From Rhodoplanes tepidamans (GTDB lineage: Bacteria; Pseudomonadota; Alphaproteobacteria; Rhizobiales; Xanthobacteraceae), in contig NZ_JAUSUJ010000002.1 in assembly GCF_030813915.1 (NCBI RefSeq), forward strand, positions 1 to 64,000: a DNA stretch of 64,000 nt, read 5' to 3'. Shown one piece after another: positions 35,907 through 42,558 of this stretch; within the stretch, counting starts at the first letter, position 1, and each line of letters starts with the position of its first letter. The position numbers were made by a program, and so were the translations under genes. Under the pieces are notes generated by a model. It was not told the origin of the DNA. It saw only the letters and a list, made by a program, of their open reading frames with translations, and did no database searches.

Positions 35907-37529
<1,623 letters not shown>

Positions 37530-37752: not shown

Positions 37753-38151
37753 TCAGGCCCGCCGGGCATCGGTGGCGGCGAAGTCCTCTCCCTTGAACAG
37801 CAGCGCCGCGTCGTGCGCGGCGGCGCATGCATAGGACAGGCAATCGCCGAAGTTCAGCCGGGCCTCGTGGCGGCCCTTGCCGTACCGCTCGAAGGCCGCG
37901 ACCGCCAGATGGGCGGTCTCCTCGGTGATCGGCACGATGGTGATCCGCGCCTCGCGAAGCAGACGCGTCACCAGCCCGTCGGCCACGGTCGGCGTGACGC
38001 CGAGCAGGGTGGACAGTCGCATCGCGGCCTCGAGCACGACATGGCCGGCCGAGACGGCCCCGTCCGCCGCCTCGATCGCGCGAGCGAGCTCGGTGGCCTC
38101 CGGCTCGGAGGTCAGGATGGCGACGATCGCCGAGGTGTCGACGAAGATCAC
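37753..38151 (-). CDS. vapC: type II toxin VapC (PIN-domain ribonuclease)
   Basis: A 132-residue PIN-domain protein, a metal-dependent ribonuclease toxin. The acidic active-site residues are visible: FVDTSAIVAIL (first Asp), VVLEAAMRL (Glu), FGDCLSYACA (third Asp) and the Asp in FAATDAR at the end. The family usually cleaves tRNA or rRNA. It starts with GTG, overlapping the vapB stop by four bases, so toxin translation depends on the antitoxin. It lies at the edge of an accessory region. Confidence 0.9.
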   Translation of the reverse strand: MIFVDTSAIVAILTSEPEATELARAIEAADGAVSAGHVVLEAAMRLSTLLGVTPTVADGLVTRLLREARITIVPITEETAHLAVAAFERYGKGRHEARLNFGDCLSYACAAAHDAALLFKGEDFAATDARRA

Positions 38152-38387
38152 GAATTGCCCCAGAGATCGTCGACCTCCTGCTCGTCCACGGGGCGGCTGC
38201 GCTGTGGATCGCGTAAGCGGGCCGCATCGCGGGCGATCTCCTCGAGGCGCTCCGCCAGCGGCCTGGCGTCGCGAGCGAGCGCCCCTTCGAGCGCCTCGAT
38301 GACGGCGCGAGTCATGGTCACGCCCCGACGCTCGGCCAGGGCCTTGGCCAACCGGCCGGCGCGATCGTCCCGGATGTGGAGTGCCAT
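38148..38387 (-). CDS. vapB: type II antitoxin VapB
   Basis: A 79-residue antitoxin of the PSK/Rv0623-like VapB type. The N-terminus (ALHIRDDRAGRLAKALAERR) resembles the short ribbon-helix-helix DNA-binding region of this group. The C-terminal acidic tail (VDEQEVDDLWGNS) is expected to wrap the toxin. It precedes vapC in the usual antitoxin-first order with a 4-bp overlap. An inverted repeat just upstream is a plausible autoregulatory operator. Confidence 0.88.
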   Translation of the reverse strand: MALHIRDDRAGRLAKALAERRGVTMTRAVIEALEGALARDARPLAERLEEIARDAARLRDPQRSRPVDEQEVDDLWGNS

Positions 38388-38435: not shown

Positions 38436-38574
38436 TGCAGATCCGCGCACCGGCAACCCGTGCGGCCTTCGCAGGCGACGACGTCCCACGCTGACTATCC
38501 TCCTCTGCGCCCGAAGCCCGCTCCTCGACCGACGTCGCCGCCGGTGACGTCGCATGCGTCCGCGCCGCGCCTGC

Positions 38575-38802
38575 TCACCTCCGGACGACGATCCGGGTCT
38601 TCGGCCCGATCATCGCCAGCAGCCGGCGCAGGTCGTTCGGGGCGAGCGCGACACAGCCGGCGGTCGGCAGGAAGCCGTCACGGGCCAGATGGACGAACAC
38701 GGCGCTGCCGCGGCCGGCGATGCGCGGGCGGGCATTGTGGTCGAGCTCGATCATCAGGTCGTAGAGCCGGTCGTCGCGCCACAGGTGGTCGCCGGCCGGC
38801 AC
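38575..38802 (-). pseudogene. truncated copy of the L,D-transpeptidase gene (3' fragment)
   Basis: Encodes the last 72 or so residues of the L,D-transpeptidase whose intact gene lies 3.3 kb to the right. The shared DNA is 213 bp (38585-38797) with only three mismatches. The catalytic His and Cys region (VHLARDGFLPTAGCVAL) is kept, but the N-terminal two thirds of the domain are missing, so it cannot be active. The 3' end differs by a 3-bp indel and reads VVRR instead of VVR before TGA. The ATG at 38802 lies outside the repeat and is probably accidental. It is best seen as a footprint of the insertion or duplication that brought the cassette at 39.1-41.1 kb. Confidence 0.9.
38585..38797. repeat. 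213-bp direct repeat, left copy
   Basis: Identical to 41891-42103 except for three substitutions (at 38653, 38755 and 38787 by my count). The two copies are in the same orientation, 3306 bp apart. Confidence 0.95.
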
Positions 38803-39147
38803 CGGTGCCGCGTGGATCAGCGGCGGCGACGTGGATCGTGATCTCGGGCGCGTTTCGTCGACCCGAACACGACGCTCGTCGTCGCTGCGCGCCGTCGCAA
38901 GTCCGGATCGTGAGGCCCGCGTCTCGAATCGCGCGGGATGGGGCGCGCCGGAAAAGGCAGCCGTTCCTCGCTGCTATATGAAAATGGGAGGCTCGTTTCC
39001 GGCGGCCGCGCATTTCGACTCGCTCCGTCACCCCGAGGTGCTCGGCCGAAGGCTGGGCCTCGAAGGGCGACGGCCCGGGCCGCTCTCCTCCGAGGCTCGC
39101 CGTGCTCGCACTTCAGGATGACGGGTCGAGGTTCAGGGCTGCTGGTG
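38798..39147. other. 350-bp non-coding region left of the ImmA/IrrE cassette
   Basis: Starts at the left-repeat boundary with the perfect palindrome GGCACCGGTGCC (38797-38808). I see no convincing gene. Bases 39025-39122 hold a dispersed repeat with CACCCCGAGGTGC, GGCCTCGAAGGGCGACGG and AGGATGACGG, related to the two copies between mnmG and rsmG. Confidence 0.6.
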
Positions 39148-40671
39148 TCAGTCGCTCGACGGTCCGCGAAAGGCGGCGCGCAGTCTTTCACGATCCCACT
39201 CGCCGATCAGGTCCAGATTGTAGATGTGCTCGGTGAGGGCCGTTTCGCTCACGCGCAAGGTCGCAGCGGCTTTCACGATGTCATCGCGCTCGATGCGCTG
39301 CTGCGCCGGCAACAGCCGCCGCACGAGTGGGCCAGGCATCAGCAGGTAGGCCGCGAACGCATTCGCCCGTTTTTCGATGCCGGGCGCGACCCAAGGGCCG
39401 CTCGCCACAGCCACCCGACGGGCGCGGCCGCGATCGAACAGGACGTGGCAGAGCTCGTGGGCCAGCGTGAACCGCCGGCCCTCTTCGGCGGCGTTGTAGA
39501 TGCTCGCCGTGTTCACCAGAATCGTGGGACCGAATCCTTCACCCGCGAGGGCGACGCCGCGGATCGTGTCGGTGACGAGGCGGGTCTCCCTGACGTCGAT
39601 GCCGAGCCGACGGACGACGCCGCGGATGTCGATGCATTCGGCGTCGCCGGGCTCGTCGAGGTCCTCCAGCAGCTCCGCGGCGAAGTCGTAGCCGTCCTGG
39701 TGGGGGACGCCGAGCGGAACCCCGGCGCGCGGGCGGACGAGCTCGGCCAGGGCAGGGCTCTCCGGAATGTCCATGCGTGAGGCCAGAAGGGACGAGATCG
39801 TGTCGACATCCTCGCGACCGATGTTCGGCGTCACGCCGCCGAACATCGCGACCGCGGGTGAGAATGTGGACACCGCCGGGACGTCCACGATCCGCACGTC
39901 GTCGAGCAGGCGGTGCGCGGCGGCGCCAAGTCGCGCAAGAGCGGCCCGAACGCTCGCGAGGAGATCACTCTGGACATAAGCGGCCGTCATCGCGGCCGCC
40001 GACGTGTCACGCAGCGCGGTGATCTTGGTCGCGAGCCGCGTAGCTGCCGCCCGGTCGGAGTCCGTCTCGGCCGGCGCCGTTCGCACGGCCCAGGCCAGCG
40101 CCTCCCAGAGCGGTCCGGCGACGTCCGCCACCGGAAGGCGCGCCGTGCCGGGCTCCGCCACGAAGGTGAATCCCTCCGGCGCGAAGAGCGGAGTCGCGAG
40201 GGACCAGGACAGCTCGATGTCGTCAATGAAGCGGCGAACGAACAGGTCCGGAAGCAGACCGCCCTCCGCGGCAGACCGCAGCGCATGGCGACGATACCAG
40301 GCCTGCACGGTCGCGTAGGTTGCGCGTCCGGTCTCGTCGGATTCGCCGATCCAGCGGTCCAGGGCGCGCCGGCAGGCCACCAGGGCCGGTGCCGAGGACT
40401 TCTCCGACCAGGAAAAGTCCTCCTCGTGCAGCAACGGGATCCAATTGTCGGCGAGCCACTCGAGGAGCGGTGACAGATACCAGCCGACATGAGCCTTCGG
40501 CTGGGTGCCCTGGAGGCTTTGCGTGATGTTGCGCCCGGCGACGTCGATCCTGAGATCGCCCATCGACCACCCATGGTCCGCCGGCCGACGCTCGCGTGGC
40601 TCGCTGTCGCGAACCCACCGCACCGCGATCGAGAACCGCTGCGGGTCTCCAAACCGGGTGAACTCAGTCAT
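39148..40671 (-). CDS. ImmA/IrrE-type metallopeptidase with long unrecognised N-terminal region
   Basis: A 507-residue protein. Residues about 365-470 form an ImmA/IrrE zinc peptidase domain: FTLAHELCHVLFDR has the HExxH site and EKRANAFAAYLLMP the third ligand. ImmA/IrrE enzymes cleave transcriptional repressors in mobile elements and in the Deinococcus DNA-damage response. The first 330 residues are unusual; a Trp-rich block (GWYLSPLLEWLADNWIPLLH, about residues 63-82) and WSMGDLRIDVAGRNIT stand out, and I recognise no known domain. The helical C-terminus (VSETALTEHIYNLDLIG) resembles the segment after the peptidase in phage-type ImmA. It overlaps the preceding 136-residue gene by 8 bp, so the two form one unit. 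No repressor gene lies next to it. Confidence 0.85.
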   Translation of the reverse strand: MTEFTRFGDPQRFSIAVRWVRDSEPRERRPADHGWSMGDLRIDVAGRNITQSLQGTQPKAHVGWYLSPLLEWLADNWIPLLHEEDFSWSEKSSAPALVACRRALDRWIGESDETGRATYATVQAWYRRHALRSAAEGGLLPDLFVRRFIDDIELSWSLATPLFAPEGFTFVAEPGTARLPVADVAGPLWEALAWAVRTAPAETDSDRAAATRLATKITALRDTSAAAMTAAYVQSDLLASVRAALARLGAAAHRLLDDVRIVDVPAVSTFSPAVAMFGGVTPNIGREDVDTISSLLASRMDIPESPALAELVRPRAGVPLGVPHQDGYDFAAELLEDLDEPGDAECIDIRGVVRRLGIDVRETRLVTDTIRGVALAGEGFGPTILVNTASIYNAAEEGRRFTLAHELCHVLFDRGRARRVAVASGPWVAPGIEKRANAFAAYLLMPGPLVRRLLPAQQRIERDDIVKAAATLRVSETALTEHIYNLDLIGEWDRERLRAAFRGPSSD

Positions 40672-41074
40672 CGTCGGATTCCAACGCCCAGTGGACGTCG
40701 TCCTCGGGCCTCTCCATGTATCGCTTCAGGTCGCGCGACCGTATCAGCTTTTCGTCCTGCCAACGATTCTTGAGCGCCGCAGGAACGCTTTGCCACGGCA
40801 CCGGATAGCCATGCCACGTTCCGTCGTTGGTGGGGACGGCGATGAAGGCGATGCCGCGCGCCGTTGCATAACGTCGGCCGGAGCCGTTCGGGCAGGGAAC
40901 GCTGCTCTCGAAGAGACGGCCAGCCTGCGTCTTTTCCCAAGGATGCGCGTCGACATCGTTGCCGAGGCGGCGGCAGACATCCGTGATGTGAGTCCATTCC
41001 GGGCACAGCGTGCCCTTTCTCCCGGTCGCCGGCCGGTTCTTGTGCTTTTGCGAGCCGCGATATGGTTCGGACAT
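40664..41074 (-). CDS. uncharacterised 136-residue protein paired with the ImmA/IrrE peptidase
   Basis: I do not recognise a named family. Visible features: a basic N-terminus (SQKHKNRPATGRKGTLCPEW), a glycine-rich middle (PNGSGRRYATARGIAF), a TNDGTWHGYPVPW block rich in aromatic residues, and an acidic C-terminus ending in DDD. It has no membrane segment, signal peptide or obvious helix-turn-helix. Its last 8 bp overlap the start of the ImmA/IrrE gene, so it is translated first and is coupled to it. By analogy with toxin-antitoxin and ImmR-ImmA pairs it could be the regulator or target of the peptidase, but that is inference only. Confidence 0.8.
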   Translation of the reverse strand: MSEPYRGSQKHKNRPATGRKGTLCPEWTHITDVCRRLGNDVDAHPWEKTQAGRLFESSVPCPNGSGRRYATARGIAFIAVPTNDGTWHGYPVPWQSVPAALKNRWQDEKLIRSRDLKRYMERPEDDVHWALESDDD

Positions 41075-41883
41075 CTCGGTTTGCGCGGCCGGACAGTGAA
41101 CTGGGGCGGGCGTCTCGAATCGGAATTCCGGCCGAATTCAGCCCGGGCCCGGGCGGTTCCTGCGCTCGCGTTCCTGAGTACGCAGCGCGGCTTTCGAAAA
41201 CTCGTTCTGCGTCCTAATGGTGGCGATCGTAACAACGGGCCGCAGTTTCTGCAAACCGCACAAAGGCCGAGCCAACCGGCCTCTTGACTAAATTCCTATC
41301 CAGGATCATACTCCTCCCGTCTCGCTCGTCGAGGGACGTCGACCGGTGACGTCGGGCGGCGGAGCGGGCCGGTGACGTGCGGGTCTTCTCGGACGCGCCT
41401 CCGGTTACGGGGGCGAGGCCGAAAGCTCCGCACCACGGCGGGGGCGGTCCCCGTCAGAAAAGCCGGGCGCCGGATCCGGAGAGACGCCGGCCGGCGCATG
41501 CGGCACCTGCGGGCCCGGCCTCGTCAGCCGCGGTCCCCGGGCGGTGTCGGGGGATCTTCGCTGGGCATGGACGACCCGGAGCGCCGCACAGGCCGACGCC
41601 GGACCACCGCCGTCGGTGCTGCGGAGAGCGCGCGAGACCCGTCGCCGTAAAGATGCCGCCGCGGAGCGCCGGGAGGCGTGCGCATCGACGCTTCGATGCG
41701 CGTTGCGTCCCGACGGACGCAGCACGGTTTCGGCGCCTGTCGGCGCTCCGCGTCCCTCGGCTTCTGCGGACGCCGCGGGGAACGGGTGGTGGACCTCATG
41801 GGCAAAGCCCGGGCGCGCCGGCGCCGCGGGATCGGGAGATCGTTCGCATGCGGACCGAGAGCGCCGCGCCCGGACGGCGGGCG
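41075..41883. other. 809-bp non-coding region right of the cassette
   Basis: No convincing gene on either strand: the reading frames here are long only because of high GC and are Arg/Pro-rich. The part 41075-41320 is less GC-rich and should hold the promoter of the minus-strand cassette; an AT-rich patch lies at 41285-41315. GACGTCGACCGGTGACGTCG at 41336-41355 resembles GACGTCGCCGCCGGTGACGT at 38531-38550, left of the truncated ldt copy, so the duplicated segment may originally have extended further left. Confidence 0.55.
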
Positions 41884-42450
41884 TCACCTCACGACGATCC
41901 GGGTCTTCGGCCCGATCATCGCCAGCAGCCGGCGCAGGTCGTTCGGGGCGAGCGCGACGCAGCCGGCGGTCGGCAGGAAGCCGTCACGGGCCAGATGGAC
42001 GAACACGGCGCTGCCGCGGCCGGCGATGCGCGGGCGGGCATTGTGGTCGAGCTCGATCACCAGGTCGTAGAGCCGGTCGTCGCGCCACAGGCGGTCGCCG
42101 GCCTCGCCGTCGCGCCGGCGGAACGGCCGGTTGTAGCGGCGGTCGGCGGGATCCTCGCACCAGGCGAGGTCGGGCCCGATGCGTCGCACGGGCAGGCCGG
42201 TGCGCGGCCGCGGGCCGCGGTCGGGCCGCCACCACAGGCGGAGCGGCCGGAACACCCCGCGCGGGGTGGCGCCGTCGCCTTCGCGCTTGTCGGCCCTCAG
42301 CCCGGCGCGGCCGAGCGCCACCGGCAGCCGCAGCGGCCCGGCCGCGAGCCAGCCGCGGGTCGGCCGGCCGGCGCACGCCGTCACCACGACGCGGCGGAGA
42401 CGGGCGTCCGGCGGGCGCGCCGCCTCTCGCCCATGGGTCTGACGAATCAA
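41884..42450 (-). CDS. L,D-transpeptidase (YkuD family)
   Basis: About 188 residues. The domain contains GLRADKREGDGATPRGVFRP, WCEDPADRRYNRPFRR and the catalytic segment VHLARDGFLPTAGCVALA, with His and the nucleophilic Cys. These enzymes make 3-3 peptidoglycan cross-links or attach proteins to the wall; this short type has no evident signal peptide in the visible frame. The start is uncertain: TTG 42450 fits the homologous N-terminus, ATG 42531 would leave only 27 bp to the divergent regulator, and GTG 42387 is also possible. Its last 213 bp are duplicated at 38,585. It is divergent from an OmpR-type regulator. Confidence 0.82.
   Translation of the reverse strand: MIRQTHGREAARPPDARLRRVVVTACAGRPTRGWLAAGPLRLPVALGRAGLRADKREGDGATPRGVFRPLRLWWRPDRGPRPRTGLPVRRIGPDLAWCEDPADRRYNRPFRRRDGEAGDRLWRDDRLYDLVIELDHNARPRIAGRGSAVFVHLARDGFLPTAGCVALAPNDLRRLLAMIGPKTRIVVR
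41891..42103. repeat. 213-bp direct repeat, right copy (inside ldt)
   Basis: The original copy, within the intact L,D-transpeptidase gene; 210 of 213 bases match 38585-38797. The boundary with non-matching DNA on the right is at 42103/42104. Confidence 0.95.
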
Positions 42451-42558
42451 GGGTATGGCCGCCTGCGAATGCGTCGGGACACTTGCTCTTTCGCCCCCGA
42501 ATGCTCTACTTCGCGCACTATCGCGTTCCATGTGCGCGTGCGCCAGAGGCCTCGAGCG

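Follow-up and report, generated by a model that had tools for sequence, protein, structure and literature searches.

The repeated 3' end of ldt in Rhodoplanes tepidamans: a possible scar of one-sided recombination beside a protease cassette and a candidate structured RNA

Results

The locus and its repeat pair

The subject of this analysis is a stretch of 64,000 nucleotides from Rhodoplanes tepidamans (assembly GCF_030813915.1, contig NZ_JAUSUJ010000002.1, positions 1 to 64,000), which we refer to as the window. Within the window, the interval between an ABC-F type ATPase gene and ldt, the gene of an L,D-transpeptidase, is occupied by a VapBC-like pair, a second copy of the 3' end of ldt, a two-gene cassette that encodes an ImmA/IrrE-like protease and a 136-aa partner, and a copy of a dispersed, structured RNA element (Table 1). 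The two copies of the ldt end form a direct repeat, and this repeat, together with the DNA that it brackets, is the concern of the present work.

The repeat pair is confirmed exactly as the original prediction had given it: the two copies, located at positions 38585-38797 and 41891-42103, are on the same strand and have 3 mismatches over 213 bp (99% identity), and the span that they enclose is 3,093 bp long. The mismatches are located at positions 38653/41959, 38754/42060 and 38786/42092 (left/right copy) and separate identical runs of 68, 100, 31 and 11 bp. With one 3-nt gap allowed, the homology reaches the ldt stop codon (left copy 38575-38797, right copy 41884-42103); the outer boundary of the homology is thus the stop codon itself, with the 3-nt length difference between the copies located just before it, and past the stop codon there is no clear duplication on the two sides. 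The inner end of the left copy is an abrupt junction at 38797/38798, inside ldt, which reads as had been described, and the 12-bp palindrome GGCACCGGTGCC follows directly, from position 38798. The right copy is located inside a 191-aa frame that matches the YkuD profile over residues 43-190, and the open frame of the left copy (75 aa) still matches positions 84-146 of the 146 positions of the same profile, in agreement with the earlier description of an intact gene on the right and a 3' fragment on the left.

No other near-identical repeat of at least 80 bp has been found in the window, the two further repeats found there having 75% and 81% identity, and no further copy of the ldt end is listed in a DNA search of the source genome, a 6.86-Mb draft in 63 contigs. 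Loss of the insert through recombination between the repeats would follow from their identity.

The insert carries the cassette pair that had been reported and, also as reported, no transposase or integrase among the three open reading frames (ORFs) scanned with Pfam (those of the two cassette proteins and the 160-aa frame at 41405-41887; smaller ORFs were left unscanned). The G+C content of the 136-aa gene is 0.635 and that of the protease gene 0.691, compared with 0.713 for the window. Beyond the original prediction, we have found two repeated elements inside the insert, i.e. the dispersed element at 41282-41831 and a short repeat at 39015-39150.

Table 1. Positions of the features in and around the interval between the ABC-F gene and ldt.
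Feature	Positions	Strand	Basis or remark
ABC-F type ATPase gene	35907-37529	+	borders the variable interval on the left
VapBC-like pair (PIN toxin and Rv0623-like antitoxin)	37753-38387	-	flanks the left copy on its outer side
Second ldt copy: left 3' fragment, stop codon included	38575-38797	-	repeat alignment, YkuD profile
Abrupt inner junction of the left copy, then palindrome GGCACCGGTGCC	38797-38809		read from the sequence
Short dispersed repeat	39015-39150		dozens of matches in the source genome; also matches in relatives
507-aa ImmA/IrrE-like protease	39148-40671	-	Peptidase_M78 53.7 bits (cutoff 22), HEXXH motif
136-aa partner protein, no recognised family	40664-41074	-	ORF; 8-nt overlap with the protease gene
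Promoter-like TTGACT-N17-CATACT of the RNA element	41284-41312	+	promoter scoring
Copy of the dispersed structured RNA family (candidate noncoding RNA gene)	41316-41831	+	alignment, covariation
Intact ldt (L,D-transpeptidase, YkuD)	41884-42459	-	41884-42103 is the right repeat copy; start codon uncertain

Comparison with relatives

Four genomes have represented the same genus in the comparison of the locus: R. elegans DSM 11907, 'Rhodovulum' sp. PH10, R. serenus DSM 18633 and Rhodoplanes sp. Cfx2-03. The original prediction had proposed a search for relatives with a single ldt and without the insert, and these are the relatives that we have encountered: a second ldt match occurs at none of the 80 named ldt loci examined (the best 80 of 303), and the insert has not been found in the relatives searched. 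The latter result comes from a whole-region search of 40 genomes, the source genome included, in which seven first-look candidates were scored per genome; there is a match in 30 of them, and the matches outside the source genome are to ldt, to the RNA element, to the repeat at 39015-39150 or to stretches of at most about 80 bp. Because neither a second ldt nor the insert was found in these relatives, the event that produced the repeat is recent and specific to the lineage.

The divergence of the copies points in the same direction: over the ldt-end stretch they differ from each other by 1.4%, compared with about 17% from R. elegans and from Cfx2-03, and therefore the duplication took place long after those splits, which upholds the recent origin that had been proposed. 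Eight of the nine relatives agree with the right copy and not with the left at two of the mismatches; the third mismatch is ambiguous, with the right copy matching R. elegans and Cfx2-03 and the left copy matching six of the nine.

The four other Rhodoplanes-group genomes inspected all differ in the DNA that lies downstream of ldt. In PH10, a neighbour that is known from other genera is located 28 bp from ldt; in R. serenus, ldt is followed by a Sortilin/Vps10-like gene and a glyoxalase-family gene; Cfx2-03 has the ABC-F gene, a copy of the RNA element and, in the equivalent interval (locus L030, 8562-11235), a pair that consists of a 749-aa GNAT-domain protein and a 156-aa ASCH protein. The arrangement in R. 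elegans (locus L029, 7448-13130) is rearranged relative to the window: ldt adjoins a block that resembles obg/L27/L21 by eye, and the ABC-F gene is inverted.

The two-gene protease cassette

The cassette is rare, and its two genes keep together. Among 149 genomes of the family, the 136-aa protein is matched in three, i.e. the source genome and two weak cases (G096 and G004), and among 385 genomes of the class, the ImmA-like protein is matched at E<=1e-30 in two, i.e. the source genome and G346, where the two cassette proteins adjoin each other in the order seen here (identities of 55% and 48%). A profile search for the 136-aa protein in 398 genomes of the phylum has returned ten matches: the source genome, seven strong and two weak. 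The ImmA gene directly follows the 136-aa gene in all seven strong genomes, being split into two pieces in one of them (G635), and a stop codon interrupts the 136-aa match in G672; no ImmA match occurs within the 3-kb loci around the two weak matches of the phylum or those of G096 and G004. The adjacent pair is thus found in eight genomes besides the source genome. Taken as a whole (window 39148-41074; loci L134 and L166-L172), the cassette is a conserved, overlapping, lone two-gene module with a sporadic distribution across the phylum.

No near-identical repeat brackets any of the eight other module sites (at L177 and L182, one flank is shorter than 500 bp because of a contig end); the 30-nt pair that brackets the L183 site, at 77% identity, looks like chance. 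A regenerated gene end is therefore not the usual mark of this module. Mobile genes were not noticed near the eight sites in an inspection by eye of the first 60 residues of each neighbour, and the neighbours resemble ordinary core genes. No relative of the 136-aa protein has been confirmed in viral contigs or plasmids; the ImmA-like protein has no match in phages and three partial matches in plasmids.

The 136-aa protein has no match in Pfam, NCBIfam or PHROGs and a weak NsnC match in PADLOC (E 0.0086); its predicted structure, computed from the single sequence with no alignment, has a mean predicted local distance difference test (pLDDT) score of 44.5. The ImmA-like protein matches capP (E 2.9e-18, residues 344-480) and RmrA in PADLOC, a 'transcriptional regulator' family of PHROGs over residues 331-500, and the spr1629 antitoxin far under the cutoff. 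Apart from this PHROGs match, no helix-turn-helix (HTH) family has been found in either protein with Pfam, NCBIfam or PHROGs. Considering the pairing of the genes and the known behaviour of the ImmA/IrrE family, the cassette is probably a protease switch: the ImmA-like enzyme would act on, or be restrained by, the 136-aa partner or its target.

The dispersed structured RNA element

The right end of the insert (41282-41831) is a dispersed element that recurs in the source genome at about 71% identity. We have aligned 16 copies, about 390-520 nt long, from the source genome, from three further members of Rhodoplanes and from two more genera; the alignment folds with 104 pairs, of which 25 show compensatory changes. 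Over 72 pairs chosen from this fold, 98.5% of the cells pair, a share that is biased towards the structure, which was itself derived from the same alignment; double changes occur in 19 of the 72, compared with 8.4 in shuffles (none of 500 as high) and 1-2 in slid controls.

The 5' end of the element resembles a promoter. Upstream of 16 of 40 RNA copies, the sigma-70 promoter score is at least 9 of 12, compared with 4 of 800 control 50-mers, and upstream of 6 of the 40 it is only 6 of 12. The promoter-like sequence of the window copy places the RNA start near position 41320, and transcription of the element is suggested by these features. Repeated ATTCCTAT-like motifs are often seen by eye between and after the -35 and -10 boxes, the window copy (41284-41312) being an example; they may be the site of a regulator. 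A protein-coding reading of 41405-41887 was considered and rejected: the frame has no Pfam match, and many gaps of the alignment have, by eye, a length that is not divisible by three.

The window stretch and six other loci have no match to the RNA element in Rfam release 15 at E<=1, the four rows listed at that threshold falling outside the element, and seven further loci have no match at the gathering score. Titles and abstract openings of the literature on noncoding RNA in Rhodoplanes, Bradyrhizobium and Rhodopseudomonas contain no evident description of it.

Because positions 462-511 of the RNA query match a different repeat, the distribution has been counted with a 53-nt model of the 5' hairpin, whose E-values are rough. 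At E<=0.01, the hairpin is found in 43 of the 149 family genomes (source genome included), which represent 21 of 47 genera; four genomes reach 11 matches apiece and the source genome has 4, and there is no match in two of five same-genus genomes, one of which is 58% complete. At E<=0.001, it is found in 4 of 249 genomes of the order, again with the source genome included. The loci assigned to the family are window 41282-41831 and L030, L036-L038, L041-L048, L137, L143, L152, L184-L213 and L217-L233. In Cfx2-03 (L230, 2-607), two hairpin matches on the same strand, about 550 bp apart (82.6 and 47.2 bits), are possibly a tandem pair.

Copies within one genome have the promoter-plus-RNA unit in common and unrelated flanks; the blocks common to them are mostly about 300-730 bp long, with one of about 100 bp at a contig end and one of 904 bp between two loci that contain short tandem repeats. 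Some copies are located at orthologous sites in two species. A mobile-element protein linked to the RNA was sought and set aside, with no neighbouring ORF being widely common in 57 loci (first 12 clusters); the larger ORF clusters around these loci either consist of frames that run across the RNA or reflect orthologous sites. Near ldt, the element occurs in Cfx2-03 alone among the 80 named loci, and the tree places the Cfx2-03 copy on a different branch from the window copy.

Discussion

We read the two copies of the ldt end, with a probability of roughly 0.4, as the scar of one-sided homologous recombination with DNA from a close strain. A single additive uptake of such DNA would have taken place in the variable interval that separates the ABC-F gene from ldt. 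At one end, the incoming DNA would have recombined by homology in ldt, and at the other it would have been joined without homology at position 38797, inside ldt, i.e. by homology-facilitated illegitimate recombination, so that about 220 bp of the ldt end would have been left behind as the second copy. The two strains would have had different DNA downstream of ldt, VapBC in one and the ImmA cassette with the RNA element in the other, and the two sides would differ past the stop codon for this reason. One-ended homologous integration has been described in print (PMC3240628, in the part of the paper available), and it would account for the stop-codon boundary, the abrupt inner end, the 1.4% divergence and the lack of a recombinase among the frames scanned. 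The character of the two boundaries, the youth of the copies, the single ldt of the relatives, the variability of the downstream DNA, the rarity of the module and the low G+C content of the 136-aa gene all appear to speak for it. The donor and the joining steps we infer from the sequence, and either side could be the newcomer; an argument that the right side is ancestral, based on the adjacency of RNA and ldt that the window has in common with Cfx2-03, was dropped, because the tree sets the two RNA copies on different branches.

Several points weigh against this reading. It assumes natural uptake of DNA in Rhodoplanes, the genomes compared include neither the donor nor a conspecific strain, and the G+C content of the ImmA gene is unremarkable. 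Furthermore, a short stretch in the outer flank of the left copy (38519-38553) is similar to the 5' part of the RNA element: none of 500 shuffles is as good against 41282-41400, with 1 of 500 against 41284-41883 and 10 of 500 against 41784-41883, and some of the flank could thus have been duplicated as well. The flank was also tried as a second RNA copy and rejected, the RNA model giving 12.3 bits (E 0.93).

The same short resemblance would suit a break repair or template switching in one cell, by which about 220 bp of ldt would have been copied beside the joining point of the cassette, with no second strain needed. This process, which we regard as somewhat unlikely, fits both the abruptness of the inner junction and the shortness of the copied stretch and would account for most of the four features of the scar; the outer boundary at the stop codon and the 3-nt difference before it fit two diverged alleles better. 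The geometry of an intact gene, an insert and a displaced 3' end in direct orientation is also that of a decayed, site-specific integrative element at the 3' end of ldt, in which the right copy would be the restored end and the left copy the displaced old end, the integrase having been lost later. ImmA-type proteases are found in integrative elements, and the ImmA of ICEBs1 is mentioned in the available part of PMC2701414. That origin, which had been suggested in the form of a cassette that carries a regenerating gene end, is improbable: the three frames scanned include no integrase, the usual Xre-type repressor is absent from the cassette pair (Pfam, NCBIfam, PHROGs), and the eight other module sites are without a near-identical bracketing repeat.

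Unequal recombination, the other origin that had been suggested, would have duplicated the ldt end in tandem, and the cassette would have entered between the two copies at a later time. The direct orientation of the copies and their high identity agree with it; since the flank past the stop codon is not clearly duplicated beside the right copy, and since two events would be required, we do not favour it and regard it as distinctly improbable. That the repeat is an error of assembly might be suspected in a draft of 63 contigs, and this is the least credible of the explanations, as the copies differ at three sites and by 3 nt and their longest identical run is only 100 bp.

The original interpretation is supported in part. 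If one-sided recombination is correct, the repeat is a scar of an ordinary kind, left by gene gain without a recombinase, and is unusually easy to read. Two components of the bracketed DNA match nothing in the libraries searched, namely the 136-aa partner in the scattered protease module and a multi-copy structured RNA family. The RNA family, seemingly absent from Rfam release 15, is of greater interest than the protease module. We would give about even odds that it is an undescribed class of large structured noncoding RNA genes (about 390-520 nt, with a promoter-like 5' end and at least eight helices), which spreads inside genomes as a promoter-plus-RNA unit without a linked protein and marks, or helps to create, variable gene intervals like that next to ldt. 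Its targets, its protein partners and its way of spreading are open to study in cultured Rhodoplanes.

Comparison with known systems

Integrative elements can restore the 3' end of their target gene, and they likewise leave an intact gene on one side and a displaced 3' fragment on the other; here, unlike in such elements, no integrase has been found, and the other module sites are without near-identical target repeats. Homology-facilitated illegitimate recombination, as presented in the available part of PMC3240628, combines a homologous join at one end with an illegitimate join at the other and requires no recombinase; the boundaries of the present repeat would fit one homologous and one non-homologous end, the process being proposed here from its scar.

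The cassette is comparable to the COG2856/ImmA-IrrE Zn-peptidase modules (PMC2701414, in the part available) and to capP of PADLOC, in that an M78 peptidase domain with HEXXH is encoded in a two-gene module. In the published COG2856 modules, as far as that part of the paper describes them, the partner is an Xre protein; here, the protease is a protein of about 500 aa with a long N-terminal part, and the partner is not a recognised Xre or HTH protein. Compared with type II toxin-antitoxin systems of the Xre-COG2856 kind, the cassette has the M78/COG2856 domain with HEXXH, and no Xre-type HTH partner or fused domain has been found with Pfam, NCBIfam or PHROGs, apart from the PHROGs regulator match of the protease. 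Lastly, the RNA element resembles the structured RNA families of Rfam release 15 in its covarying helices, its promoter-like 5' end and its length of about 390-520 nt in the 16 aligned copies, and it differs from them in having no match to any family at the thresholds given above.

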